From positions 1,054,001-1,118,000 of the forward strand of contig NZ_CP039965.1 of assembly GCF_005234135.1 (NCBI RefSeq): a DNA stretch of 64,000 nucleotides. Direction: 5' to 3'. Below the pieces are notes generated by a model. The model was not told the DNA's origin. It saw only the letters and a program-made list of their open reading frames with translations, and did not search any database. This DNA is from Pseudorhodobacter turbinis (GTDB taxonomy: Bacteria > Pseudomonadota > Alphaproteobacteria > Rhodobacterales > Rhodobacteraceae). A program made the translations under genes and the position numbers. Within the stretch, counting starts at the first letter, position 1; each line of letters starts with the position of its first letter. Positions 37,327 to 62,324 of this stretch are shown here, in pieces.

Positions 37327-40300
37327 TCACGCCACCAAGGCTTCGGCACGTTTCAGGTCGACCGAAACAAGCTGGCTTACGCCTTGTTCGGCCATTGTCA
37401 CCCCGAACAAACGGTCCATGCGGGCCATGGTCACGGCATGGTGGGTGATGATCAAAAAGCGGGTTTCGGTCCGGCGTGTCATCTCATCCAGCAGGTCACA
37501 AAACCGCGTCACATTGGCATCATCCAGCGGCGCATCCACCTCATCCAGCACACAAATCGGCGCGGGATTGGCAAGGAACACCGCAAAGATAAGCGCCATC
37601 GCCGTCAGCGTTTGCTCCCCCCCCGACAGCAGGGAAAGCGTGGCCAGCTTTTTGCCCGGCGGCTGGCACATGATCTCTAGGCCCGCATCCAGTGGGTCAT
37701 CGGATTCGACCAGCACAAGCCGCGCCTCACCGCCGCCAAACAGATGCGAAAACAATGTCCCGAATGAGGCGTTCACCTGCTCAAACGCCGTCAAAAGCCG
37801 TTCGCGCCCCTCACGGTTCAATCCTGCAATACCGGCCCGCAATGCCTTGATCGCCTCGGTCAGATCGGTCTTTTCCGCAGCCAGCGTGTCGTGTTCTTCT
37901 TGCACGGCTTTGGCGTCTTCCTCGGCGCGCAAGTTCACAGCCCCCAAGGCTTCGCGCTGCCGTTTCAGACGGCCCACTTCCGTTTCCAGATGCTCTGCGT
38001 CGGGCATATTATCCGCATCTGCGCCCAAGGTTTCCAGCAGCTTTTCGGGAGAACATTCCAGCTCTTCATGGATGCGTAGGGCGGCGGCTTGACGGGCCTC
38101 TTCGGCGGCCTCATGGCGGGCCTCAGTGCGCGCGCGGGCCTCTCTCGCCTCACCGGCAAGGCGTTCAGCATCGCGTTCGTGCAAGCTGGCATCGCGCAGG
38201 GTGGCATCGGCCAGCGCCAAAGCATCCGCGGCAGCGGTACGGCGGGCCTCGGCGGTTTCCATCGCTTCGGCCAGATCTTCGCGCTGAATGGCGATTTCTT
38301 CGGGGGCGGCCTGCGCCTCTTCCAGCTCTTCCTCGGTTGTGGCTTTGCGTTCGGCAAGCTCTTGCGCGCGGGTATTGGCGGTTTCCAAACGGTGCTTCCA
38401 GCCCGAAATTTCTTTGGTCACCTCTTGCTGACGCTTCAGGCGACCTTCGCCCTCACGGCGCAATTCGTCATGGGCGGATCGGCGCGTCATCATGGTGATC
38501 CGCGCAGCCTCTACCGTGGTTCTTAGCGTCTCGATTGACGCGCGGGCCGCCTCCAGATCGGGCAGCGCGTCGATGGCGGTGCGCGCCTCTCGCAGGGCGG
38601 TGCGCGCCTCGGCCGCCTCGGCATCATAGCGCCGGACCGACAGTTGCGCCGCATCCAGCTTGCCCTGCGCGATGGACCGATCCGCCTCTGCCCGCGACAG
38701 CGCGCGGTTGCCCTCGGTCACGCGGGTATCAGCGGCGCGGCGGGCATCGCGGGCCATCTGGTCGGCGCGGGCAAGATTGGCCAAACGCTCTTGCAAGGCC
38801 TCATGCGCCTGTTTTGCGCCATCGGCCTTGGTCGCTGCCTCTTCAAGATCACGTTTAAGCTGCACCAGCCGGTTCAACTGTTTCAACCGCAGCGCCGCCG
38901 CCGAGGGCGCATCATCCGCCCCCACGCGAAACCCGTCCCAACGCCACAAATCGCCCTCAACGCTGACCAACCGTTGACCGGGGCGAAGGGCTGCTTGCAA
39001 GGCCGCCCCCTGCGCCCGCGTGACCAACCCGATCTGGCGGATACGACGGCGCAGTACATCCGGCACCGCAACCCATTCGGCCAAGGGCGTGGCCCCTGTG
39101 GGCAGGGCAGCATCCGCATCATAATCGGGCAGGCCGGCCCAGCCCGAGGCCGCATCACCCGTCACCGCCGGTGCGCGCAGATCATCGGCCAAAGCCGCGC
39201 CCAGCGCAGCCTCATATCCCGGCGTCACACGGCATTGGTCCAACACTTGCGCACCGGAATCGGACTCGCGGTCCACCAAGCGCGCAAGGGCGGCGACTTC
39301 GGCGCGCAGGGCGTTGGCCTCGCCTTCCGCCTCGGAACGCATGGCGCGGGCGTCGGCCTCAAGGCCTTGCGCCTCCATGCGCGCCTCTTCGGCAGATTCG
39401 AGCGCCTCTTCGGTGGCCTCGGCAAGGGCTGCAGCCTCTTCGAGTGTGATCTCGGCGGCCTCAAAGGCCTCGGCGGCGCCGGCCTCGGCCTCTTGCGCCT
39501 CAACGGCAGCTTCGCGGGCGCGGGTGGCGTGGGCTTCCAGCTTGTCCACCGTGGCCTGGGTATCGGCAAGCAAACGGCCCGCGGATTGGTGGCGCGCGGC
39601 AAGGCGGGCAACATCTTCGGTGATCTGCGACATGCCGGCCTCACGCTCGGCCAACAAAGCACCCGCTTCACGCGAAAGGGTCGCCGCCTCGCCCAAGCGT
39701 TCGTCATGCCCTTCGGCGGCGCGGGCAAGTTGCTCTGCCTCCCACTCCAGCCGCTCTATCGTTTCTTGTGCGTCGCGGTTCAAGCCGGATTCACGCTCCA
39801 TATCGCGGGAAAGCTGCTCGATGCGGCCGCGCAGGGTGTCGATCAACTGCATGGCGCGGGATTCGCTATCGTTCAGCGCATCATGCTGCACGGTAAGCCG
39901 TTGCAAAAGCGCCGATGCGATGGCCTCTTCTTCGCGCTTGGCCGGAAGGTCGGCCTCGGCCTTGGTGCGGGCCTCGGCGGCCAGACGGGACAGGGTTTCG
40001 GCCTTGCCGGCCTGTATCAACCGTTCGCGCAGCAAGGATTGCGCCTCTACCACGGCCATATCGGCCTCGCGCCAGCGGCGGTACAAAAGCAGACCTTCGC
40101 TGCGGCGCAAATCGCTGCCGATCTCGCGATAGCGGGCGGCTTGGCGAACCTGACGCGCCAATGTACCAAGCTGCACCGAGAGCGCTTCCAGCACATCATC
40201 CACCCGCGCAAGGTTGGTTTCGGTCGCGTTTAACCGCAGCTCTGCCTCATGCCGCCGCTGATAAAGGCCAGAAATGCCGGCGGCCTCTTCCAAGATCCGG

Positions 40301-40782
40301 CGGCGCGCTTTGGGTTTGGCGTTGATCAGTTCGGAAATCTGGCCCTGCCGCACCAAAGCGGGCGAATGCGCACCGGTCGAGGCATCTGCAAACAACATCT
40401 GAATATCGCGCGCGCGCACATCCCGCGTGTTGGCCTTATAGGCCGAGCCGGCATCCCGCGTGATACGGCGGGTAATCTCGATCGTATCCGCCTCGTTAAA
40501 ACCGGCCGGGGCAAGGCGATCCTCATTGTCGATCACCAGTGCTACTTCGGCAAAGTTACGCGCCGGACGGGTTGAGGTGCCCGCAAATATCACGTCCTCC
40601 ATGCCGCCGCCGCGCATCGCTGTGGGGCGGTTTTCACCCATCACCCAGCGCAGGGCCTCCAGCAGGTTGGACTTGCCGCAGCCATTGGGACCAACCACAC
40701 CCGTCAGCCCCTCATGGATGATAAGATCCGTAGGGTCGACAAAGCTTTTAAAGCCATTAAGCCGGAGGCGGTTGAAACGCAA
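37327..40782 (-). CDS. smc: Chromosome segregation protein SMC
   Basis: 1151 residues, the standard length. Walker A GPNGCGKSN is at 31-39; two very long Glu/Ala/Arg-rich coiled coils flank a hinge at roughly 510-640 (QVLDQCRVTPGYEAALGAAL and on); the ABC signature LSLLSGGEQTLTA and Walker B PICVLDEVDAPLDDANV close the head. It organises and separates chromosome arms. The presence of smc shows that this DNA belongs to the main chromosome. Confidence 0.97.
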   Translation of the reverse strand: MRFNRLRLNGFKSFVDPTDLIIHEGLTGVVGPNGCGKSNLLEALRWVMGENRPTAMRGGGMEDVIFAGTSTRPARNFAEVALVIDNEDRLAPAGFNEADTIEITRRITRDAGSAYKANTRDVRARDIQMLFADASTGAHSPALVRQGQISELINAKPKARRRILEEAAGISGLYQRRHEAELRLNATETNLARVDDVLEALSVQLGTLARQVRQAARYREIGSDLRRSEGLLLYRRWREADMAVVEAQSLLRERLIQAGKAETLSRLAAEARTKAEADLPAKREEEAIASALLQRLTVQHDALNDSESRAMQLIDTLRGRIEQLSRDMERESGLNRDAQETIERLEWEAEQLARAAEGHDERLGEAATLSREAGALLAEREAGMSQITEDVARLAARHQSAGRLLADTQATVDKLEAHATRAREAAVEAQEAEAGAAEAFEAAEITLEEAAALAEATEEALESAEEARMEAQGLEADARAMRSEAEGEANALRAEVAALARLVDRESDSGAQVLDQCRVTPGYEAALGAALADDLRAPAVTGDAASGWAGLPDYDADAALPTGATPLAEWVAVPDVLRRRIRQIGLVTRAQGAALQAALRPGQRLVSVEGDLWRWDGFRVGADDAPSAAALRLKQLNRLVQLKRDLEEAATKADGAKQAHEALQERLANLARADQMARDARRAADTRVTEGNRALSRAEADRSIAQGKLDAAQLSVRRYDAEAAEARTALREARTAIDALPDLEAARASIETLRTTVEAARITMMTRRSAHDELRREGEGRLKRQQEVTKEISGWKHRLETANTRAQELAERKATTEEELEEAQAAPEEIAIQREDLAEAMETAEARRTAAADALALADATLRDASLHERDAERLAGEAREARARTEARHEAAEEARQAAALRIHEELECSPEKLLETLGADADNMPDAEHLETEVGRLKRQREALGAVNLRAEEDAKAVQEEHDTLAAEKTDLTEAIKALRAGIAGLNREGRERLLTAFEQVNASFGTLFSHLFGGGEARLVLVESDDPLDAGLEIMCQPPGKKLATLSLLSGGEQTLTAMALIFAVFLANPAPICVLDEVDAPLDDANVTRFCDLLDEMTRRTETRFLIITHHAVTMARMDRLFGVTMAEQGVSQLVSVDLKRAEALVA

Positions 40783-41081
40783 AGGAGGGCACCGTTGATT
40801 CTGTTGCAGTGGCGCATGCTCTGTCCAGCCGCGTGATGTGTCAACCCGTTAACCTTGACCTGTCACGCGCCGATGCCACCCCTTTAATATGATCACAAGC
40901 ATGCAGCACATCAGCCGCTGCCATGAAACAGGAACACTGGCCTCATACGCAGGGCGACGGATGCACCCAATCCGGAAATTCAAATGTAACCCCCTATCAA
41001 TTTTACTATCCATGCATGAGGCTTTAAGATCATCGAACGGTCCGGCTATGTCCCTCCACCAACTTTTATGAAGGTTTTCCC

Positions 41082-42008
41082 ATGGCCACCAAAGCGATGC
41101 TGCACCCCCGTAACCAACACCGAGAGGGTTACGATTTCATGCGTTTGGTGGCGCAATCACCCGAGCTTGAAACATTTACAATCCGCAACCCTGCGGGTCA
41201 GACGACTATTGATTTTCAGGATGTGCAAGCAGTCCGCATGCTGAATCGGGCGTTGCTAAAGACGCATTACAATATCGATTTCTGGGATATCCCTGCCAAC
41301 TATCTATGCCCTCCTATTCCAGGGCGTGTCGACTACATCCACTATCTGGCTGACTTACTTGCCGACAGCAACAACCAGGAAATTCCGCGCGGGCGTAATA
41401 TCAAAGCGCTGGACATCGGCACCGGTGCAAGCTTGGTGTACCCTCTTACTGGCCAGAGTGAATACGGCTGGCACTTCACGGGCGTTGATATAGATCCCGC
41501 CGCGATCAAATCTGCACAGCAGATTTGCCAATTCAACAAGCTGAACATTACCCTTAAACGGCAGAATATACGCGAGAATATCTTTAGAGGGGTAATCCAG
41601 CCCCATGATGCTTTTCACGTCACCATGTGCAACCCGCCGTTCCATGCTTCTATCGAGCAAGCGAATAAAGGCACCCAACGCAAGTGGCGCAATCTTGGCA
41701 AAGGGCAATCAAAAAAGCTCAATTTTGGCGGCCAAAATGCCGAACTTTGGTGTCCCGGTGGCGAGATAGGTTTCATAGCCACCATGATTGAACAGAGCAT
41801 GGAGTTCGCCAACCAATGCCTGTGGTTTAGTTCGCTGGTGTCGAAAAAAGACAACCTCCGGCCGCTCTACAAAATTCTGAAAAAGGCGGAAGTTGCTGAC
41901 TTCAAAGTTGTCGAAATGGCACAGGGGCAAAAGACCAGCCGTTTTATTGCCTGGACCTACATCAAGAAAAGCCAGCGATCCCTGTACATTAACGGGCCCA
42001 GAGCCTAG
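41082..42008 (+). CDS. rlmF: 23S rRNA (adenine-1618-N6)-methyltransferase
   Basis: 308 residues. Starts with [20 protein letters not shown], then [30 protein letters not shown] for the SAM-binding motif I, and the catalytic N6-adenine motif in CNPPFHAS. This matches RlmF (YbiN), which methylates A1618 of 23S rRNA. RlmF is best known from Gammaproteobacteria. Base composition is visibly more AT-rich than the flanking smc and later genes. Its stop and that of the convergent kinase gene share CTAG. Confidence 0.9.
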
Positions 42009-44272
42009 GACTTAGGAGAATGTGCCACTTGTGCGGTCCATTGTTGAATGGCTGCCATTAAGGCGACTTTGGTGATCGGCTTGGTTAGAAAACCGTCCAT
42101 GCCAGCCTCTAAACAACGCTCCTCATCCTCTTGCAATGCGTTGGCCGTCAAGGCCACAATCGGACAATGACCCGCAGCTGTTTTGGCCTCCAAGGCTCGA
42201 ATAGCACGTGTGGCTTCCAGCCCGTCCATCTCCGGCATAGACACGTCCATCAATATCACATCAGGCGCGGTATCCGTGAATTTCTCCAAAGCCACACGGC
42301 CATTATCCGCAAAGATTAAGGAAAAACCCGACTTTGCCAGCATCTTCTTTACAATAAACTGATTGGTTTTATTGTCTTCGGCTACAAGAACTTTGAGATG
42401 ACCAGCATGTTCGCTATGTTGCTCAATTTGCTTCACAGCAGGCACCTTCACTTCATTCATCTGAAGCGACCGGATAATGACCGCGCGCAAGCTTTCGGAC
42501 TGCACCGGTTTCAAGAGCAATTCACAAGGGCTGTGCTCTGACTTGATTGACGGGCTCATTGCCTGCTCAATCGATGACAAGACAATGAGAGGTGTTTTTT
42601 TCAAAGCATCCATGCCCCGGATGCGCCCTGCAAGCTCTTCGCCATCCATATGAGGCATCTGGTAGTCTTGAATTATAAGATCAAAAGGGTCGTCTGTCCG
42701 TTCAAGGATTTCCAGTGCTTCCATACCGGAAGACGCCAGCACCGGAATCATATTCCAGCTGGCAAGACGCTCGGACAAAATTTTTCGATTCAGTTCCAGA
42801 TCATCAACAACGAGAACGCGCAAACCGTCCAGCGATGGCTGTCTTTTGTCGATATGAGAGAGCATTTCCGGCGCGGTGGGAAGCGGCACCTTCACACTAA
42901 ATGTTGACCCGCGATCACCTTCCGAGGTGACAGTTATAGCCCCCCCCATCAAAATCAACAGCCTTGCAGAGATTGCCAAACCCAATCCAGTTCCCTCAAA
43001 TTGCCGGTTCCGGGCGCTGTCCACCTGCTCAAATGCATTGAAGATCTGATTTACACGATCAGGCGGGATACCTATCCCTGTATCCGTCACCTCGATCCGG
43101 AGATTGTATTGGTTCGCCCCCTTAATTCCGGACACATCGATATAAACATACCCGTCAAGCGTGAACTTAATCGCGTTGCCTATAATGTTCATAAGTACCT
43201 GCCTGAATTTTCCGACATCCCCTATGAACGCGGTGGGCAGCTCTGGATCATAGCGCAGCACGACCTCAACCGAGCTTTCCCCGGCTTTTTTTGAAAGCAG
43301 CGTCAGAATTCCCTCGATCGTTGCCTGCAGATTAAAAGGGGCAAGTTCCAGTTCCGATTTGCCAGCTTCGATTTTGGAAAAATCCAGAATGTCGTTGATA
43401 ATCGCCAGCAACGCCGCACCAGACGACGATATCGTTTCGGCATACACCCTTTGATCGTCATTAAGTTCGGTCTCAAGAATAAGCTCGGTCATTCCGATAA
43501 CGCCATTCATTGGCGTTCGGATTTCATGACTCATATTGGCCAGGAAGTCAGACTTTGCCCTATTCGCCCTGTCAGATTTTTCACGTTCAACTTCAAGCGC
43601 TTGCTCACGATCATCCCGTTCCAGAAACGTTTCCCGCAGAATGTCGACCGATTTGTCGAGCGCTGTGAATTCCCGGGCAGCAAACGTCCCAATCGGTTTT
43701 CGTTCATGTGCGCTACCCAAAATAACTGCTGACATCCGGTTGTGGATATTGTGAAGGGGCCGCATGGTGAAAAAATGTGTCAGCAGCAAACACAGACACG
43801 AAAGTGAGACCATCGCGAGTGCGATCATAAGGCGCGTGCGATTGATTTCGGCATCGATTGCCGCCTGACCCTCGGCGATAGACCAATCCACTTCGATAAC
43901 ACCGAAGGATTCGCCCTCCACGACGATTTCACGTTTGAAATGACGAAGTGACGTGACATCTTCAGCGCCTTCTCGCGTTGCTTGGGCGATAAGATCACCG
44001 AAGTCATTCCGAATTGAGAGGGAGAGCAACTTGGAGCTTGTCGACAAAGCTTGCTCCATAGCAGATTCCAGAACAGGAGTGTCCTGAACGATAATGGGTT
44101 CAATCATCAAACCGCTGATGAGAGAGACCGTCAGATCCGCTTGCTCCTGAAGAGCGTCATTCATTTGACTGACTTTATTATCTCGTTCATGGTTTTCAAC
44201 AAGCAGCCCAACAGTGAGCGCAACACAGGCCATAGAGATTGCGATCTGGGTATATGCGCCCATTTTCCTCAT
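42005..44272 (-). CDS. Hybrid sensor histidine kinase with two receiver domains
   Basis: 755 residues. A first membrane helix (about 9-25), a periplasmic sensor (26-145), a second helix (about 147-168) and HAMP (about 170-222) lead through a coiled coil to the DHp domain with H249 in the [10 protein letters not shown] box, and the ATPase domain (N box [11 protein letters not shown]1 DTGIGIPP, G2 GTGLGLAI). Two receivers follow: 485-600 with D536, and 627-745 with D676 and K731. No HPt domain and no output domain is present. It lies 22 bp after the PhnD-like binding-protein gene in one operon, so the periplasmic protein probably presents a ligand to this sensor. Partner phosphotransferase must be elsewhere. 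Confidence 0.92.
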
Positions 44273-44294
44273 ATGCTCATCCTCCCAACCGCAT

Positions 44295-45191
44295 TTAGAA
44301 TCCTTTGCTGTGGTTCATGGCGTGGCGGATGAAATCATAATCAGCGTCAGATCCTTCCAGAAATCCGTCTTCGGCGATGTCACCCAACAGTTCGGCGTCT
44401 TTTATCTCCAACATAACCTGTCGCATCGCGGCGAGGACTGCAGGATCCATCCCCGCGGCAGCCAGCCAGGGCTTTGTGACATTTTCGAACTCGAACATCG
44501 GCCGGATCGGAACACCCGACCGTATTAGTTTGATCATCGTGTCTTCTTTTAGGGCGCCTGCAGTGAATCGACCGACACCGACCGCAGCACCAACCCGATC
44601 GTGGCGACCAAGATAGTCGTAGCCGCTCAGCTCTTTGCTGGTAATTCCCGCACGTATCAGATGGCTTTGGGCAAGATACCTTCCGATGGTCGACAACTGA
44701 TCACCAAAAGCAAAGCTTTTATTCCTGAGTTCTCTTAGTGACTGAATGGGGCTGTCCGCATGGACGGCGATAACCCCTTTGAACCGCTTACTCCCCTTAT
44801 TGGATTCCATAGCAATAATCTGGATGCCGCTATTCTGTTCGAAAACTGTGATGTATGAGGCCGGTCCGAAACGGGAAAAATCCACATCGCCAACCGCAAG
44901 ATGCTCGATGCTGGTTTCATATTCCTTCGCAACCCGCATCTTGATGTGCACTGGTTCTCCGAGAATATCGGTCATCTCATGGGCCAGATACTGCAAGAAA
45001 GGGCGATACATTTTAACCGTCTGGGTCGGCTTGTCTGCAGCATAGGTTCCAAAAACCAAGTTGATGTCCGCCATTGCCGACGTTGCAAGAACAGCTGCCA
45101 CCGTTGCCGCGACAACAGCGCGTGCCCATCGGGCGCCACACCTCTTGTACCTTGCAACGCAAGTGAACAATTCTACCACAATTCCTTTCAT
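44295..45191 (-). CDS. PhnD-like phosphate/phosphonate periplasmic binding protein
   Basis: 298 residues. A long signal peptide ends near LATSAMA at about residue 41. The mature part starts with [28 protein letters not shown], followed by [19 protein letters not shown] and [26 protein letters not shown], the pattern of PhnD/PtxB binding proteins. No ABC permease or ATPase gene is next to it; instead it is cotranscribed with the hybrid kinase 22 bp downstream. A signalling role, like TorT for TorS or LuxP for LuxQ, is inferred. Ligand unknown. GAGGG lies before ATG. Confidence 0.85.
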
Positions 45192-45544
45192 AGGTTTCCC
45201 TCTAATAGCTTCGGATTCGCTTTAAGGCCTCGCCCAAAATGATCAGACATTCATGGCAGACTAAAAAGAAGAACTCCTTAATGCCGCCCAGCATCGCGGG
45301 ATGGCCGCCAATCCGGGGTAATCCGCTGCGAAATAATTTTCCGGGGTGCGCCGGAAATCAATCACGCCCTGCTTCTTCAAACATTGCTTTGCGTACGGCT
45401 GTCTGAATTTCGCGAAAGACCATGACAGTTTCCAACGGCCAATCACGTCCCTGTCACATCTCCCGATATCGTTGGTTCAAAGGTTAATATTGCTTGACCA
45501 ACCAATCCTCTACGCAGAGACTATGCCGCTCAAGGAAGAGCAAA
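45192..45544. other. Intergenic stretch without recognisable gene
   Basis: This 353-bp gap lies between the divergent binding-protein gene and a GNAT gene. Minus-strand frame 45261-45446 (61 codons) shows no family features or ribosome-binding site. Promoters for both flanking genes must lie here, but I could not pick convincing -35/-10 pairs. It may mark the right edge of the AT-richer island. Confidence 0.5.
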
Positions 45545-45997
45545 ATGACGCCATTTCAACCCAAAGCTCCTTATGATTGGGATGCGCTTTACGCGCTGAT
45601 ACAACGGGCTTTTGCCAGCATGGAGGGGCGGATCGACCCGCCGTCCTCGCTGTACAGGATGACAGCCAAGGATCTGGCGACCCACCCCGGAGAGGTCTGG
45701 GTGATCGGCCGCCCCGCGCGTGCCTGTATGGTCCTGACCCCAACGGCGGGCAGCCTTTATCTGGGCCGCTTATCGGTCGACAAACCCTGGCTTAGAAAAG
45801 GCTATGCCCGTATTTTAATAACCCACGCCGAAAGCCGTGCCCGCGCCCTTGGCCTTCCCGTATTGAAGCTGCAATCCCGGATCGAGCTGGTGGAAAACCA
45901 CGCGGTTTTCTTTGCGCTCGGATTCAAACAATCAGGCGCCTCCACCCATAAGGGGTTTTCCGCCCCCACCTCATTGATCTTTACCAAAGAGGTTTAA
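45545..45997 (+). CDS. GNAT-family N-acetyltransferase
   Basis: 150 residues from ATG at 45545 with AGGAAGAG upstream. GNAT features: SLYLGRLSVDKPWLRKGYARILITHAESRARALGLPVLKL for the acetyl-CoA loop and helix, then ENHAVFFALGFKQSGASTHKGF. The N-terminus (YDWDALYALIQRAFASMEGRIDPPSS) resembles GNAT proteins of Rhodobacterales. Acceptor unknown. It stands alone at the junction of the AT-richer island and the normal GC-rich background. Confidence 0.88.
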   Translation: MTPFQPKAPYDWDALYALIQRAFASMEGRIDPPSSLYRMTAKDLATHPGEVWVIGRPARACMVLTPTAGSLYLGRLSVDKPWLRKGYARILITHAESRARALGLPVLKLQSRIELVENHAVFFALGFKQSGASTHKGFSAPTSLIFTKEV

Positions 45998-46023
45998 CCC
46001 CACCGCAGTGCCGACTGGCCAGT

Positions 46024-55641: not shown

Positions 55642-57294
55642 TTATTGTGCAGCGATGCGATAGGGTCCTTGCGGTATTTCCTTTGGCGCAAAGCTGTCAG
55701 CCGCAGCCCTGCCCCAACGTCCATGCCATTCGCTCAGGTCAGGATGCTCATCCTTGGCCAGCAAAAAGCCTTCCGGCAGATAGGCATAAACCTCATTGCC
55801 ATCCCGAAATGCGCTGTCTGTTTGGCGAAACATCAGGTGATAGGGCAAAAAGTCATTCGGACGATCCAATCCCGCAGCGCCAGCAATTTCAGCCAGTGCC
55901 TTCAACGTATTGGCATGGAACCGCGCCACGCGTATGCCTTTATCATCAGGATCCAGCGCGCGCTGGCGCAGCCCGTCTTGCGTTGCAATGCCCACCGGAC
56001 ATTTGTTGGTATGGCACGCCTGCGCCTGAATACAGCCAAGCGCGAACATGAAGCCGCGGGCAGAGTTGCACCAATCCGCCCCCAGCGCCAAAGCCCGTGC
56101 AATATCAAAGGCGGTGACGATTTTACCCGCCGCACCAATCTTGATCTCACCGCGCAAACCGGCCCCCCGCAGAGTATTATGGACGAAATGTAGCCCCTCC
56201 AGCATCGGCATCCCGACCCGGTTGGCAAATTCCAGCGGAGCGGAGCCTGTACCGCCTTCTTTACCGTCTACAACGATGAAATCAGGGTGAATTCCGGTTT
56301 CCAACATGGCCTTCACCATGCACATAAACTCTCGCCGGTGGCCGATACACAGCTTCAAACCAACAGGCTTGCCGCCCGAAAGATCCCGCAAACGCTGAAT
56401 AAAATCCATCAGCCCAAGCGGGGTTGAAAACTCACTATGCGCCGCCGGAGAGACACAATCCACGCCCATCGGAATGCCGCGTGTTTCGGCGATTTCAGCA
56501 CTGATCTTGGAGGCGGGCAACATCCCGCCATGCCCCGGCTTTGCGCCTTGGCTCAGCTTGATCTCAATCATCTTGATATGCGGATCAACAGCCTGCACCG
56601 CGAATTTTTCGGGGTCAAAGCGCCCCTCGCTGTCACGGCACCCGAAATAACCCGATGCGACCTGAAAAATCATATCGCCGCCCTGACGGTGATGGCTGCT
56701 GATCCCGCCCTCGCCGGTGTCATGCGCGAAACCGCCCAATTTGGCGCCGGTATTCAGTGCTTTGATCGCATTGGCCGAAAGTGCGCCAAAACTCATGGCC
56801 GAAATATTGTAGATCGAAGCATTATAGGGATGTAGACACTGCTTCCCGCCGATCTGCACACGGAAATCACTGTCAGTGATATGTTTGGGCACAACCGAGT
56901 GGGTGACCCAAGCATAACCCGATTCATAAACGCGCTCCGAGGTGCCAAAGGGTTTCTTATCCTCAACCCCTTTCGCGCGCTGATACACTAGACTGCGGGT
57001 TTCGCGGCTAAACGGTTCCTCATCGCGGTCACTTTCCAAAAGATACTGGCGAATCTCGGGACGAATCGCCTCCATTAAATAGCGAATGTGACCAATAATC
57101 GGATAATTCCGCAGAACGGCGTGGCGTGCTTGGCGAACATCCCGAATGCCCAAGGCAAAAAACGCCGCAGAAATCACGAAAAACAAGATAAACCAGCCCG
57201 AACCGGTCGCAACCGCCCCTATGCCGCAGAAAATTGTCGCAATAAGCGCCACAGCAAGCATGCCATAACGTTGTTGGAAGTAAATCGAGCGCAT
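55642..57294 (-). CDS. FMN-binding glutamate synthase-family protein with N-terminal membrane segments
   Basis: 550 residues from ATG at 57294 (GAGGGGG upstream). Two N-terminal hydrophobic helices lie at about 10-48 (MLAVALIATIFCGIGAVATG, then WFILFFVISAAFFALGI). The rest matches the FMN/substrate domain of glutamate synthase: MSFGALSANAIKALNTGAKLGGFAHDTGEGGIS, QGAKPGHGGMLPASKIS, FIVVDGKEGGTGSAPLEF, and the Fe-S cysteines in ALGCIQAQACHTNKCPVGIA. The glutaminase domain is absent, so it is not a complete GltB; electron donor and substrate are unknown. It is the last chromosomal-looking gene before the replication module. Confidence 0.88.
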   Translation of the reverse strand: MRSIYFQQRYGMLAVALIATIFCGIGAVATGSGWFILFFVISAAFFALGIRDVRQARHAVLRNYPIIGHIRYLMEAIRPEIRQYLLESDRDEEPFSRETRSLVYQRAKGVEDKKPFGTSERVYESGYAWVTHSVVPKHITDSDFRVQIGGKQCLHPYNASIYNISAMSFGALSANAIKALNTGAKLGGFAHDTGEGGISSHHRQGGDMIFQVASGYFGCRDSEGRFDPEKFAVQAVDPHIKMIEIKLSQGAKPGHGGMLPASKISAEIAETRGIPMGVDCVSPAAHSEFSTPLGLMDFIQRLRDLSGGKPVGLKLCIGHRREFMCMVKAMLETGIHPDFIVVDGKEGGTGSAPLEFANRVGMPMLEGLHFVHNTLRGAGLRGEIKIGAAGKIVTAFDIARALALGADWCNSARGFMFALGCIQAQACHTNKCPVGIATQDGLRQRALDPDDKGIRVARFHANTLKALAEIAGAAGLDRPNDFLPYHLMFRQTDSAFRDGNEVYAYLPEGFLLAKDEHPDLSEWHGRWGRAAADSFAPKEIPQGPYRIAAQ

Positions 57295-57454
57295 CAGAGC
57301 CCCCCTCGACAGTTTCAAACCGAAGCAAATCGCGGGACGAAGCCGACCGATCCACTATAGGACTTTCTATTCCGAAGCCGTCACGAAGAGGTTAAACCTG
57401 TCCGAGTCAGCGACCACTAGCCATATCACCCTCACCCCTTTGGCGCAAACGGGC

Positions 57455-58135
57455 CTAGACATCGATCCGCACGCCGGAAATGGACGGATCAATCCTGCGC
57501 AAGATGCGGGTCAACCTATCGGCCAAATGTGTCTCTACATAGGTCTTATGAAACCGTGAGGGGGCCAATAGACACAGGGTACCGCCATCGCGCTCTATCT
57601 CTGACAGGCGCGAAATCCAGGCGGAAAAGGCCGCGCCGTCTTGCGCCTGAAAGGCATGCTGCGCTGCGGCCCAAACCGAGCCATCGGCAGGCAAGCTCGG
57701 GATTTGCTGAAACGGCACGACGTTGCTGGCCTCGGGGGCGGGCGGTATTTGGGCGGCTTGGCGATCTACAAAGTCGGGGCCGATGTTTGGCCAAACGTTT
57801 TGCGTATCGGCCATAATCATCGCCAGATCCAAAGCATGGAGCGCCACCCGGCCCCGCGCGGCTGCACGGGTTTCAACCAACCACCCCACGGCCCGCAGTT
57901 TTGCCATCTCTCGTTTGACGGTGCGTAGATCAACAGACCAAAGTCTGGCGATGTCCTCTTGGCCCATCGAAAGTTCGTTGCGCTGCCAGTTATACCGCGT
58001 GGTGATAAGCGACATCAGACGCAGAATCCGGCGTTGGGCATGCTTGTCTTGTGACAGAGCATAGGCTGACAAGGCTGACAAAATGTCATATTTCTTTGTC
58101 GAGGCATCCCGCCCGACAGGTTTGGTAACCAGCAC
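57455..58135 (-). CDS. DnaA-like plasmid replication initiator (replicase)
   Basis: 226 residues from GTG at 58135 (AGAGAGG upstream); a TTG at 58279 would add 48 atypical residues. A winged-helix region (ITTRYNWQRNELSMGQEDIA, RLWSVDLRTVKREMAKLRAVGWL) is followed by a linker, and the C-terminus (about 150-222) resembles DnaA domain I: VWAAAQHAFQAQDGAAFSAW, ISRLSEIERDGGTLCLLAPS, RFHKTYVETHLADRLTRIL. This architecture is that of the DnaA-like replicases of Rhodobacterales plasmids. It is divergent from parA-parB, the characteristic order for this replicon class, with the likely origin between. It differs from chromosomal DnaA in lacking the AAA+ ATPase. Confidence 0.85.
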   Translation of the reverse strand: MLVTKPVGRDASTKKYDILSALSAYALSQDKHAQRRILRLMSLITTRYNWQRNELSMGQEDIARLWSVDLRTVKREMAKLRAVGWLVETRAAARGRVALHALDLAMIMADTQNVWPNIGPDFVDRQAAQIPPAPEASNVVPFQQIPSLPADGSVWAAAQHAFQAQDGAAFSAWISRLSEIERDGGTLCLLAPSRFHKTYVETHLADRLTRILRRIDPSISGVRIDV

Positions 58136-58235
58136 TGCCCCGTGCCTCTCTGATTTTAGGGGGCGAATACACGCCCGACGATTGCAAGGGTCTGTGCCCT
58201 TTTCTGGCGGTTCGTCGTCGTTTGCCAACGCTTTT

Positions 58236-58270
58236 GTCGAACCTTGGCCTATTTGCGTCCGAAGGTTCGA
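58236..58270. repeat. Inverted repeat TCGAACCTT ... AAGGTTCGA
   Basis: Perfect 9-bp arms at 58236-58244 and 58262-58270 with a 17-bp centre; centre-to-centre distance about 26 bp. A further near copy, AAGGTTCTA, lies at 58342-58350. They sit upstream of the replicase gene (or inside its rejected N-terminal extension) and may bind the replicase or a repressor. Confidence 0.45.
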
Positions 58271-58352
58271 TTCTGTCAAGACCGTTTGCAGATTTTAGCC
58301 TGAACCCCGATCTTCGAATCTTCAATCTATTCTAAAAGAATAAGGTTCTATG

Positions 58353-58448
58353 GTAATAGGGGACATTCATGGTGTCACCCCAAATCAGCCTTTTGTCACC
58401 CTAACCGTAGTATCGGGGGTATGGCTGTCCCCCCAAATAGCGTGTCCC
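58353..58448. repeat. Iteron-like TGTC(A/C)CCC repeats
   Basis: Copies: TGTCACCCCAAATC (58373-58386), TGTCACCCTAACC (58394-58406), TGTCCCCCCAAATAG (58426-58440), a partial TGTCCC (58443), and one on the other strand, TGTCCCCTATTAC (58365-58353). Starts of the three full plus-strand copies are 21 and 32 bp apart, close to two and three helical turns. This is the pattern of initiator-binding iterons. Confidence 0.45.
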
Positions 58449-58568
58449 GTCCCTGCATTTGGGAGGCTTTCACCCCGCGACTCTCAGGGAACCGATTCGG
58501 CCGGTATATCCCTTAATTTATGGGCTTTACGGCAATATTGAGATTCCTGTGAATACTATAACTCTGCT

Positions 58569-58585
58569 TTTGCATTTTGTGCAAA
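58569..58585. promoter_or_regulatory. TTTGCA-N5-TGCAAA palindrome upstream of parA
   Basis: Perfect 6-bp arms separated by five bases, ending 57 bp before the parA ATG. ParA-type proteins often repress their own operon by binding near the promoter; this is the best operator candidate, predicted by eye. Confidence 0.35.
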
Positions 58586-58642
58586 TTCAGCGTAATTGGG
58601 AACGAAGCAGTTATTAACGTCCACAAAAGAACGGAACGCCCC

Positions 58643-59950
58643 ATGTACGATCATACAGACCTCGCCAACCTTCAGGCGCAGTCGCTCAAGATGCAAAGCT
58701 GGATTCGTCGTCAAACCTTCTCCCCCGAGCTGGAGAAGACCCTGCGGCGGTTCTCCAGCTGGGAAGTGTCGGAGCTGATCTTCAAGATCAACCAGTCAAC
58801 TTTCCGGGGCCGTTTGGCCGCCGAGCCGGATTTGCCCAGCGGTGAGGTGGAGCCTGATGGCCGTCAGCGTTGGTTCAGCCTCGATGAGATCAACGAGCTG
58901 CGCCGCAAGATGAAGATCAACCGCAAATCGCTGATGCCCAAGCGCCCTGCTGGCAAGCGGGCATTCCGTGTGGCCATCGCGAACTTCAAAGGCGGTGCCG
59001 GCAAATCCACCGTTGCGCTGCATTTGGCCCACGCCTCCGCGCTTGATGGCTACCGCGTGTTGGTCGTGGATTTCGATCCGCAAGCAACGCTGTCCCACTC
59101 CATGGGTCTGAACGACGTGTCCGAGGAACATACCGTCTGGGGCATCATGGCCCGCGACTTGCTGCGCGAGACCGACCGGATGAACGCGGCGATGACCGGC
59201 GCCGAGAGTGGAGCCGCCCTGCCCCAACGCCGTATCCCCTCTTCGATCCGCGACATGGGGCTTGGTGACTTGCGCGTCTCGGATTTCATCATGCCGACGG
59301 CATGGCCTACGATCGACATCGTGCCAAGCTGTGCCAATGCTGCCTTTGTGGAGTTCGCCTCCGCGCAGTATCGCCACCTCAATCCGGATTGGACATTTTT
59401 TGGTGCCGTCTCGCGCTATCTCGATGCGCTGCCCGATGACAGCTATGACTTGATCATCTTCGACTGCCCGCCGGCGATCGGCTACCAATCGATGAATGCG
59501 GTCTTTGCGGCAGACATGCTCTACGTCCCCTCCGGTCCCGGCTATTGGGAGTACGACAGCACCACCTCCTTCATCGGTCAGCTGTCGGAGGCGCTTGCTG
59601 ACCTCAATGACGGTTTTGGTCAAACCTTTTCCGCGGAAAAGGTTACGCTGCCCAAGCAGTTCTGCGACATCCGCTTCTTGATGACGCGTTATGAGCCGGG
59701 CAACGAATTGCACCGTGCGATGTTTCAGGCCTTTGGCAAGGTCTTTGGCCCGCATGTAGCCAAGCACCCGATAGAGATGACGCGCGCGGTAGAACAGTCG
59801 GGGCGTTTCCTGTCCTCGGTCTATGAGATCGACTACCGTATAATGACGCGCGAGACATGGCGACGCGCACGGGCCTCATTCGATGGGGCCTATGAAGAAT
59901 TCAAAACCTCCGTCCTTGAGGCGTGGGAGAAGCTGGAGAAAACATCATGA
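58643..59950 (+). CDS. parA: Plasmid-type partition ATPase ParA (RepA)
   Basis: 435 residues from ATG at 58643; the frame upstream (TTG at 58577) is rejected because it crosses the candidate operator. An N-terminal helix-turn-helix region (about 35-95, with QRWFSLDEINELRRKM) precedes the deviant Walker A KGGAGKST at 116-123 and LVVDFDPQATLSHSMG. This type Ia layout is that of RepA proteins in Rhodobacterales and rhizobial plasmids. It should drive segregation with ParB and repress its own operon. The gene contains one copy of the putative centromere palindrome, which encodes T328-F-S-A-E-K-V334. Its stop overlaps parB as ATGA. Confidence 0.93.
   Translation: MYDHTDLANLQAQSLKMQSWIRRQTFSPELEKTLRRFSSWEVSELIFKINQSTFRGRLAAEPDLPSGEVEPDGRQRWFSLDEINELRRKMKINRKSLMPKRPAGKRAFRVAIANFKGGAGKSTVALHLAHASALDGYRVLVVDFDPQATLSHSMGLNDVSEEHTVWGIMARDLLRETDRMNAAMTGAESGAALPQRRIPSSIRDMGLGDLRVSDFIMPTAWPTIDIVPSCANAAFVEFASAQYRHLNPDWTFFGAVSRYLDALPDDSYDLIIFDCPPAIGYQSMNAVFAADMLYVPSGPGYWEYDSTTSFIGQLSEALADLNDGFGQTFSAEKVTLPKQFCDIRFLMTRYEPGNELHRAMFQAFGKVFGPHVAKHPIEMTRAVEQSGRFLSSVYEIDYRIMTRETWRRARASFDGAYEEFKTSVLEAWEKLEKTS
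59623..59644. promoter_or_regulatory. Putative parS centromere, copy 1 (inside parA)
   Basis: A perfect 22-bp palindrome: AACCTTTTCCG followed directly by its reverse complement. Its 20-bp core ACCTTTTCCGCGGAAAAGGT recurs at two other places within 1.5 kb and nowhere else that I noticed. Repeated exact palindromes within a parAB locus are typical ParB binding sites. Confidence 0.8.
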
Positions 59951-61062
59951 GCAAGAAACGCCGTATGTTTGATATCGATCTGCCGGATGAGGATACGGTA
60001 GAAACCTTTTCCGCGGAAAAGGTCGCGCCGACCGCCAAGCCGAGGGCGGCCACAGAGTCGCGCCGGGGTCCGATGGCCGCTGCGATCACCGAGAACGCCG
60101 ATAGCCTTAGGGATCGCGAGGCCCTTGTGGCCAAGATCCGCGCAGAAAATGACGCGCTTGCGCATGAGCATGTCCGGCTCAAACAGCAGGGATTGATCGT
60201 TGATTTGATCGACCTTGATATGATTGAGACCCGCAAGCTGACCCGTGACCGCCACGCCGGCTTTGATGAGGAGTTGGGCGAGCTGGTCGACTCTATTCGT
60301 GATGTCGGCTTGTCGAACCCGATCCGCGTAGAGCAACGCCCGGATGGCCGCTATGAGCTAATTCAGGGGTTTCGGCGTATTCAGGCGTTTACGCAGCTTT
60401 TGGCCGAAACCGGGGATGCCGAGGCTTACGGCAAAATTCCCGCGGGGATCATGGCGCGCGGGGCAGAGCTGGACGTGCTTTACCGCCGGATGGTGGATGA
60501 GAACCTTGTACGCAAGGATATCTCTTTGGCCGAAATGGCGCAGCTTGCGATCGAATATGCCGCCGATCCGATGACCGAGGTTTCCGATCCGGATAAGGCG
60601 GTCGCCAAGCTTTACAAATCCGCCAGCTATTCCAAGCGCAGCTATATCCGCAGCTTCATTCCGGTGGTCAAGCGTTTGGGGGAGGTGTTGCACTTTATTC
60701 ATGAGGTGCCGCGCGCGCTGGGTTTGGCTTTGTCCTCTAAAATCGACGAGGTCCCGGGGTTTGTACCAGCCATTCAGGCAGAGTTGGCTGGCTGGGATAA
60801 CCGCTCTATCGAGGATGAATTGTCAGTGCTGCGTCGCTTTGCAGGTGGCGAAACAGAGCCTAAATCAGGGTCTACACGACCAAGCAAGCCCGCAGCCGAG
60901 GCAAAGGCAAAAACCAGTTTTCAGATCGCGCGCCCTGAAGGTGCCGCGAAATGTGTGGCTGGGGCAGGGCGGTTGGAGATCCGGCTGGACCGCGATTTTT
61001 CTACCATTGACCGGCGCAAGCTGGAGGCCGCCGTGCGCGGGTTGCTTGACGAGATCGGTTGA
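59947..61062 (+). CDS. parB: Plasmid-type partition protein ParB (RepB)
   Basis: 371 residues from ATG at 59947. ParB N-terminal domain: LVDSIRDVGLSNPIRVEQRP, then YELIQGFRRIQAFTQL with the CTPase-type G-x-R-R-x-x-A motif. MVDENLVRKDISLAEMAQLA leads into the central HTH (KLYKSASYSKRSYIRSFIPV), and the C-terminal part ends with IRLDRDFSTIDRRKLEAAVR. It should bind the palindromes and load onto DNA. One palindrome copy lies in its own 5' region and encodes T20-F-S-A-E-K-V26. Translationally coupled to parA by ATGA. Confidence 0.93.
   Translation: MSKKRRMFDIDLPDEDTVETFSAEKVAPTAKPRAATESRRGPMAAAITENADSLRDREALVAKIRAENDALAHEHVRLKQQGLIVDLIDLDMIETRKLTRDRHAGFDEELGELVDSIRDVGLSNPIRVEQRPDGRYELIQGFRRIQAFTQLLAETGDAEAYGKIPAGIMARGAELDVLYRRMVDENLVRKDISLAEMAQLAIEYAADPMTEVSDPDKAVAKLYKSASYSKRSYIRSFIPVVKRLGEVLHFIHEVPRALGLALSSKIDEVPGFVPAIQAELAGWDNRSIEDELSVLRRFAGGETEPKSGSTRPSKPAAEAKAKTSFQIARPEGAAKCVAGAGRLEIRLDRDFSTIDRRKLEAAVRGLLDEIG
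60003..60024. promoter_or_regulatory. Putative parS centromere, copy 2 (inside parB)
   Basis: Same palindrome as copy 1 with a single change at the last base (C for T); the 20-bp core at 60004-60023 is identical. It begins 380 bp after copy 1 and lies 57 nt into the parB coding sequence, read in the same frame as copy 1. Confidence 0.8.
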
Positions 61063-61072
61063 CCTCAACCCG

Positions 61073-61096
61073 AAACCTTTTCCGCGGAAAAGGTTT
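61073..61096. promoter_or_regulatory. Putative parS centromere, copy 3 (after parB)
   Basis: The longest copy: 24 bp of perfect palindrome, the same core with one extra matched base on each side. It starts 11 bp beyond the parB stop and 1070 bp after copy 2. Being non-coding, its full conservation cannot come from protein constraint. Confidence 0.85.
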
Positions 61097-61102
61097 TACC
61101 TG

Positions 61103-61140
61103 ACTGCCTCCCGCGTTCAACGCCGGAGGCAGTTTGCTTT
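61103..61140 (+). terminator. Rho-independent terminator of parAB
   Basis: A 9-bp stem, ACTGCCTCC (61103-61111) with GGAGGCAGT (61125-61133), with a small inner GCG/CGC stem, is followed by TTGCTTTTTATC. It lies 7 bp after the third palindrome. Confidence 0.7.
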
Positions 61141-61279
61141 TTATCTGGAAAAAGCTTGCTTCTAATGCGCGGATGGGGCAATGTTTCTGTAGGCTCTAGC
61201 GCCTTTCCACCCTTAAGCGGTGGCGCGCAACACAGGCCAAACCACCCAGTATCGCAGGCGAACAGGTAGTGCTGGAGTA

Positions 61280-61307: not shown

Positions 61308-62324
61308 ATGAAGAGCCAAGACCCTCAAAATAAAAGCAGCTTAAAGGCAGGAAAGAAACCCGTTTCGGGGGGCGCGCGGACGCATGTAGGCCAACGTCTG
61401 TTGATTGATCCTGCCCAATGGCAGCAGGCCGAGGCGGGTCTTGCGCCGCAGCTTGCGCGGGCGGCGGTGGCGCTTGCGATGCTGGATCAACGCTGCCTTT
61501 TGCTGGGAACGGGCGCGGTTGAACGCCTTGCGCTGATCGAGGTTGAGGCGATGCTTTGGGCGCAGGGTGTGCGTGTGCGGCGCGAACAAATTGCAGCCTA
61601 TTTAAGCGGGGCAGGGGGGCTGACTGAAAACCGGACAGAGTTGGCGCGCGCGTCTTGGGTGTATCGCCGATTGTTGGCGCGGCCCGGTCGGTTGCCCGCG
61701 CTCCGAGGCTTTTTGGGCCTGCATGAGGTGCCGGGCGCAGGGTTGCCCGAAGATCTTAGCCCGCGCCCAAAGGGGGCCGAATTTGACCTTGCGGCCGAGG
61801 TGTTCACCGGCGGGATGCAAGAGCTGGCTGATTGTCACCCGCTGACACAAGCCGGATACGGGCAGGCGCTTTGGCGGCTGACGGGGGTGTCGGCGCCCGA
61901 TGACTTGCTGGAGCCTGCGACTGCCGCAGGGCGGATTGCGGCGGCGGAGTGTCGTGCGATCGGCTTTGCGCCATTGGCGCCCGGGGGCAGGGCGTGGCAA
62001 TTGGGCGCGAAACCCGATGGCTTGGGCGATTGGCTGGCGGCGATCCGGTCGGGGGCGCAATCCGCGATGATGGAGCTTAATCGGGTGGAGGCTTGGGCCG
62101 TCGCTGCGCGGGGCCTAACGGCGGGGCTAAAAGGCTCTACGCCTGCGAAATTGATCGATGCAATCGCGGCCCGCCCCATCTTGACGACCGAGGCCGCCGC
62201 CAATCTTACAGGCATTTCCCGCGACAGCGCCGAGCGTGGTTTGGCGCGGCTGCAAGCGATGGGGGTGGTGCATGAGATCACCGGCAGCAAACGGTTTCGG
62301 CTGTGGGTGACGGGGCCCGCTTAA
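61308..62324 (+). CDS. Winged-helix DNA-binding protein, plasmid-associated type (DUF1612/HTH-like)
   Basis: 338 residues. The body is helical and Ala/Leu/Arg-rich (QWQQAEAGLAPQLARAAVAL, ASWVYRRLLARPGRLPALRG) and the last 60 residues form a clear winged helix: ARPILTTEAAANLTGISRDS, AERGLARLQAMGVVHEITGS, KRFRLW. The layout recalls RHE_PE00001-type proteins (DUF1612 plus HTH) often seen beside rhizobial and Rhodobacterales plasmid replication genes; this is from memory and tentative. It follows parB after the terminator. No good ribosome-binding site precedes the ATG, which directly abuts an inverted repeat. Confidence 0.7.
   Translation: MKSQDPQNKSSLKAGKKPVSGGARTHVGQRLLIDPAQWQQAEAGLAPQLARAAVALAMLDQRCLLLGTGAVERLALIEVEAMLWAQGVRVRREQIAAYLSGAGGLTENRTELARASWVYRRLLARPGRLPALRGFLGLHEVPGAGLPEDLSPRPKGAEFDLAAEVFTGGMQELADCHPLTQAGYGQALWRLTGVSAPDDLLEPATAAGRIAAAECRAIGFAPLAPGGRAWQLGAKPDGLGDWLAAIRSGAQSAMMELNRVEAWAVAARGLTAGLKGSTPAKLIDAIAARPILTTEAAANLTGISRDSAERGLARLQAMGVVHEITGSKRFRLWVTGPA

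Follow-up and report, generated by a model that had tools for sequence, protein, structure and literature searches.

Candidate parS-type palindromes inside both partition genes of a DnaA-like replicon of Pseudorhodobacter turbinis

Results

The 64,000-nucleotide stretch of Pseudorhodobacter turbinis DNA analyzed here (the window) carries a partition operon, parAB, beside a DnaA-like replicase, together with three copies of a 20-base-pair (bp) palindrome, two of them within the partition genes, whose role as a candidate centromere is the subject of this work. The genes and palindromes are as follows.

58643..59950, + strand: parA, 435 amino acids (aa), a Walker ATPase with an N-terminal extension (Pfam AAA_31, 7e-27)
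59947..61062, + strand: parB, 371 aa, with a ParB N-terminal domain (Pfam ParB_N, 30.4 bits, cut-off 26.3) and a predicted helix-turn-helix domain
57455..58279, - strand: DnaA-like replicase, divergent to parA (Pfam DnaA_N, 28.5 bits, cut-off 24.6)
59623..59644, no strand: palindrome 1, 22 bp, core 59624-59643, inside parA, codons 328-334, TFSAEKV
60004..60023, no strand: palindrome 2, 20 bp, inside parB, codons 20-26, TFSAEKV
61073..61096, no strand: palindrome 3, 24 bp, core 61075-61094, just 3' of parB, outside likely genes

The two partition genes overlap through ATGA. A Walker-type ParA and a ParB in one operon, with AAA_31 and ParB_N matches above their cut-offs, give the gene content of a ParABS system, and the adjoining replicase with its DnaA-like domain places the locus among the DnaA-like replicons. 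The operon falls outside RepABC, as ParA scores 203 bits against NCBIfam TIGR03453 (partition_RepA, cut-off 348) and ParB 32 bits against TIGR03454 (cut-off 201.5), both under the RepA/RepB equivalog cut-offs.

The 20-bp core, ACCTTTTCCGCGGAAAAGGT, occurs exactly three times in the 4,246,983-base genome, in parA, in parB and just 3' of parB, where it starts 12 bases past the stop codon (61060-61062); the next likely gene begins at 61308. A first-pass annotation of the window had described three palindromes, two coding and the third outside any gene, and a motif scan bears this out, as translation does its statement that both coding copies read T-F-S-A-E-K-V (ParA 328-334 and ParB 20-26). Its overall range, 59623-61096, fits the longer palindromes, but the starts it gave (59623, 60003 and 61073) lie 1, 1 and 2 bases below those of the cores. 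No further copy with up to three mismatches was found in the 64-kb window, where 100 shuffles gave a mean of 0.00. The genome-wide scan for more copies that the annotation had proposed returned, at the same tolerance, only these three, with one match for a control pattern read backwards. In a collection of 84,980 genomes, which may lack records of the genome under study, the inner 18-mer is present on 57 contigs, 55 with one copy and two with three. The three-copy contigs are those of Pseudorhodobacter antarcticus and P. aquimaris, with copies at the same three places as in the window. The window shuffles, the genome scan and the collection counts rule out a chance origin.

The window belongs to a contig of 1,584,601 bases (C2); a second contig (C1, 2,560,737 bases) carries the chromosomal dnaA, a high-scoring ParB and both chromosomal-type parS copies. 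A 16S family search gave no match in this genome, perhaps an effect of the search itself. GC (guanine/cytosine) skew is negative to the left of the par locus and positive from ∼60 kb of the window onward. Along C2 (20 slices plus the window), its sign flips twice, at ∼1.113 Mb and in the range 0.26-0.32 Mb, with values near zero in the slices at 0, 0.80, 1.20 and 1.30 Mb. The replicon origin is thus probably at the par locus, with two arms of ∼0.8 Mb each if C2 is circular. Because the skew sign flips here, beside the divergent DnaA-like replicase, we place the palindromes at this probable origin. With the patterns tried, no DnaA boxes were found in 57001-59000 and no exact repeats of 10-12 bases between the replicase and parA.

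Within Pseudorhodobacter, the palindrome outlasts the divergence of the codons around it. The parA genes of the window, P. aquimaris and P. antarcticus are identical, pairwise, at 214 to 272 of 435 codons; the 20-mer is kept at all three places in each, and only 3 of the 429 seven-codon windows of parA, those at the palindrome, are without DNA change among the three genes. Retention of TFSAEKV with loss of the palindrome, which the first-pass annotation had named as an observation that would speak against selection on DNA, was not seen at the six coding sites of the three replicons whose DNA was read. A further congener (L190), with ParA 94.7% and ParB 68% identical to those of the window, has ACCTTCCCCGCGGGGAAGGT at all three sites, which encodes TFPAGKV in both proteins.

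ParB matches were obtained in 217 of the 394 genomes searched in the family. The best 80 outside the window's own genome, one per genome, were fetched with their flanks and make up, with the window, a set of 81 loci, in 71 of which the replicase relative is divergent to parA; the palindrome counts cover these loci, not the plasmid records with a match to ParB (602) or ParA (at least 5000). These loci contain 232 perfect 14-bp palindromes centered on CCGCGG: 59 in parA, 41 in parB, 38 upstream of parA, 84 downstream of parB and 10 elsewhere. Arms other than the five main types are found in nine. The search of related replicons that had been suggested did reveal other perfect palindromes on the same center at the same places, with a peptide that differs by type. 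In parA, 46 of the 59 lie at residues 327-333, the window's site, and the arm types TTTT, TTCC, TTAT, TTAC and GTCC go with the loop peptides TFSAEK, TFPAGK, TLSADK, TLPAGK and xVPAGT, respectively. The parB sites are read in the F-x-A frame in 33 of 41 cases and in another frame in seven, five of which are TTCC palindromes at ParB residues 133-165 that encode LPRGE or VPRGE.

Two side features of these loci may be recorded. A second in-gene palindrome lies at ParA residue 66 in L057, L061, L074, L080, L085, L096 and L098 (TTAC) and in L087 (TTCC); the seven TTAC copies do not share their arms with the TTAT sites of their clade, and residue 66 corresponds to a predicted coil (61-75) in the window's ParA model. 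Many GTCC-type palindromes are spread over the first kilobases 3' of parB in L095, L112, L110 and L094, five of them between +1195 and +1489 in L095.

A single arm type is shared by all sites in 50 of the 56 loci with at least two sites, compared with a mean of 9.5 and a maximum of 18 in 2000 shuffles that ignore relatedness; exchange between copies could likewise make sites alike. Hairpins or terminators of the par operon acting in RNA might also be expected to change their arms on both sides, and T residues do lie 3' of site 3. A hairpin, however, needs no shared sequence at three places, the arm type goes with ParB residues (see below), and a separate terminator-like stem is present 3' of site 3 (61104-61142, by eye). 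We consider such a role in RNA barely credible.

The choice of codons at the coding sites was compared with the number of perfect palindromes expected from the peptide and the codon usage of each locus; 77 of 82 loci had a ParA that fitted the peptide pattern. At the ParA site, a perfect palindrome is present in 51 of the 77 (5.8 expected) and at most one broken pair in 74 (29.9 expected). The ParB linker site is perfect in 25 of 27 loci, which were selected by peptide (2.8 expected). Similar motifs elsewhere in the same genes were perfect in 10 of 15 cases in ParA and 13 of 66 in ParB, a control that is not independent because it is contaminated by other real sites and probably also by a conserved IPAG motif. 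Additionally, in a related group of ParA proteins (61-63% identical), the corresponding loop carries a different peptide and lacks the palindrome in 14 of 14 loci, one of which has an unrelated perfect 16-mer near residue 346; because of this, we read the loop of the window's ParA group as fitted to the DNA signal.

The identical peptide in both partners could instead mean that T-F-x-A-x-K is functional in its own right, for example in a ParA-ParB contact, with the palindrome a by-product of codon choice, and six of the 77 ParA sites do keep the peptide despite one synonymous break. This explanation is very improbable, given that the peptide varies with the palindrome (TFSAEK, TFPAGK, TLSADK, xVPAGT), that the same DNA is read in another frame in the five loci with a site at ParB 133-165, that palindromes are far commoner than codon usage predicts, that the third copy lies outside genes, and that the related ParA group does without the peptide. 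Selection on DNA rather than on peptide at both coding sites, as the first-pass annotation had supposed, is strongly supported by these comparisons: the peptide follows the palindrome type, sites within a locus share their arms, perfect sites exceed the codon expectation, and the 20-mer survives codon divergence.

AlphaFold2 models place both coding sites outside the folded cores. In ParA (mean predicted local distance difference test score, pLDDT, 68), the site falls in a coil modeled with low confidence (319-337), flanked by a helix that ends at 324 and a strand that begins at 342; in ParB (mean pLDDT 72), residues 7-37 are of low confidence. The earlier description of the peptide as lying in two unrelated folds is to be corrected on one point, in that the sites are predicted to occupy a loop of ParA and a disordered linker of ParB, a placement that would make the overlap of DNA and protein constraints cheap.

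Across the relatives, the arm type of the sites varies with two ParB residues, 228 and 229, which open the recognition helix predicted by AlphaFold2 (residues 228-244). Residue 228 is Y with CTT outer arms, R with TGT, K with GTT, and A or P with TTT. At residue 229, Q is confined to CC inner arms, and other inner arms go with S, T or V; S229 is found with CC arms too. The Pseudorhodobacter lineage would have changed from TTCC to TTTT by way of S229 as a permissive state. L038, whose ParB likewise has S229, carries a half-and-half site, TTCCCCGCGGAAAA, that looks like an intermediate between arm types.

The clustering of sites at a probable origin beside the replicase, and the 38 sites upstream of parA in relatives, could point to operators or origin sites bound mainly by the N-terminal part of ParA or by the DnaA-like replicase and used in regulation or initiation instead of partition. 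Against this, arm type is linked, in a comparison made with ParB residues, to the beginning of the predicted recognition helix, the window has no site upstream of parA, and 184 of the 232 sites fall within or after parAB. We judge a binder other than ParB quite improbable.

Loci with more distant ParB proteins (20, fetched as possible coresident replicons, 14 with ParA 61-63% identical) contain repeated perfect palindromes in four cases (L220, L222, L230 and L231). The arms of the 73 typed loci are absent from the repeated palindromes of those four, a comparison that says little on compatibility because most of the 20 loci had no own site identified. On C2 itself, a second ParB match (900552, L116) was rejected as a par operon; a recombinase-like open reading frame (ORF) and a further ParB-like ORF stand beside it (by eye), indicating an island.

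Elsewhere in the window, a 338-aa ORF adjoins the par operon (61308-62324; weak helix-turn-helix matches below Pfam cut-offs, no NCBIfam match). GC content is lower in 40001-46000 (0.51-0.53 per 4-kb window vs 0.56-0.64 elsewhere), possibly acquired DNA.

Discussion

The three palindromes are very probably parS-type centromere sites of the 1.58-Mb secondary replicon, which would be bound by ParB and used with ParA for segregation. We take them for a centromere because they are the sole copies in the genome, coincide with the origin indicated by GC skew, keep their DNA sequence within both genes and differ in their arms in concert among relatives; binding by ParB is suggested by the position of the sites, the protein family and the covariation with ParB residues. 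In the mechanism we propose, a ParB dimer would bind each palindrome via the helix starting at residue 228, and residues 228 and 229 would determine the arm sequence that is read. The reading frame would carry whichever peptide the DNA imposes, tolerated in the ParA loop and the disordered ParB linker. Sites inside parA and parB may couple the centromere to its own reader, such that the cassette moves and diversifies as one unit.

Several observations weigh against this proposal. The ParA site is imperfect in 26 of 77 loci. Six of these (L037, L038, L043, L049, L051 and L102) keep the peptide with one synonymous break, as does the ParB site of L060 (one of 27 linker sites). Ten loci share a near-palindrome, TTACCCACGGGTAA, at the ParA site (L054, L063, L065, L068, L070, L078, L082, L090, L100 and L107), which encodes LPTG and breaks the palindrome only at its center, AC in place of GC. 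Two arm types are mixed in six of the 56 multisite loci, namely, L073 and five members of a single clade that combine TTAT sites with a TTAC site at ParA residue 66. No perfect site was found in the searched range of 11 of 84 loci, among them L052, which has one at the contig end. Finally, the residue-arm pattern reflects few independent changes: supported branches give 3 and 2 pairs, and although no pair is contrary, the result is not significant.

In Bacillus subtilis, parS is found inside spo0J, a ParB-type gene that carries the site for its own product, as here. To our knowledge, the 16-bp chromosomal parS is near universal; the site described here, in contrast, changes in every copy from one close relative to another, and a copy lies in parA as well. 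DnaA-like replicons of Rhodobacterales, reportedly defined by Petersen et al. in 2011, are large and have a parAB operon next to the gene for a DnaA-like replicase, the arrangement seen in the window.

The remaining comparisons draw on portions of the cited papers. DnaA-like replicons are named in PMC9025767 and PMC3910554, the former giving subtypes I and II. No centromere of theirs is named in the portions of the literature compared, the defining 2011 paper lying outside that comparison, and an earlier report is possible; among 5.39 million open papers, six palindrome strings had a sole match, which concerns maize. For RepABC replicons of Rhodobacterales, short palindromes near the partition genes are taken as RepB binding sites (PMC5613091, PMC9040568), and a 14-nucleotide palindrome with one reciprocal base change marks the compatibility groups RepABC-1 and -2 (PMC5613091). 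Some parS copies are described in ORFs downstream of repC, and selection for them within coding sequence has been proposed (PMC9040568). RepABC sites lie mainly between repB and repC and after repC, whereas those described here belong to a DnaA-like replicon and sit at fixed codons within its parA and parB genes. A different outermost base in each arm separates the window's CTTTTCCGCGGAAAAG from the RepABC parS consensus, GTTNNNNGCNNNNAAC, and leaves the window's sites outside it; relatives L105 and L108, with GTTCC arms, fit the consensus. Work on the ParB/Noc specificity switch found that few DNA-interface residues set the site that is read and that permissive changes precede switching ones (Jalal et al. 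2020, PMC7383237). The contacts there include G170, K171, S172 and R173 (PMC7383237), which align, by motif and by eye, with Y228, S229, K230 and R231 here. That work is experimental and concerns chromosomal proteins, whereas ours is a comparative pattern in a plasmid-type ParB. Intragenic parS was thus known already; what appears to be new, as judged from sequence, are fixed sites inside both partition genes, their switching in concert and reader residues that can be proposed.

The broader proposition, which we hold at about even chances, is that DnaA-like replicons carry a self-encoded, switchable centromere that dictates a ParA loop and a ParB linker, all copies of which switch together and whose arms are read by ParB residues 228 and 229. 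If so, the compatibility type would be predictable from the parA or parB gene alone. In this locus, a single DNA signal would dictate amino acids of two proteins simultaneously, a case replicated in dozens of relatives, and the locus would offer a system in which to follow the joint specificity change of a centromere and its reader, with the possible prospect of sequence-only compatibility prediction for the large replicons of Rhodobacterales.
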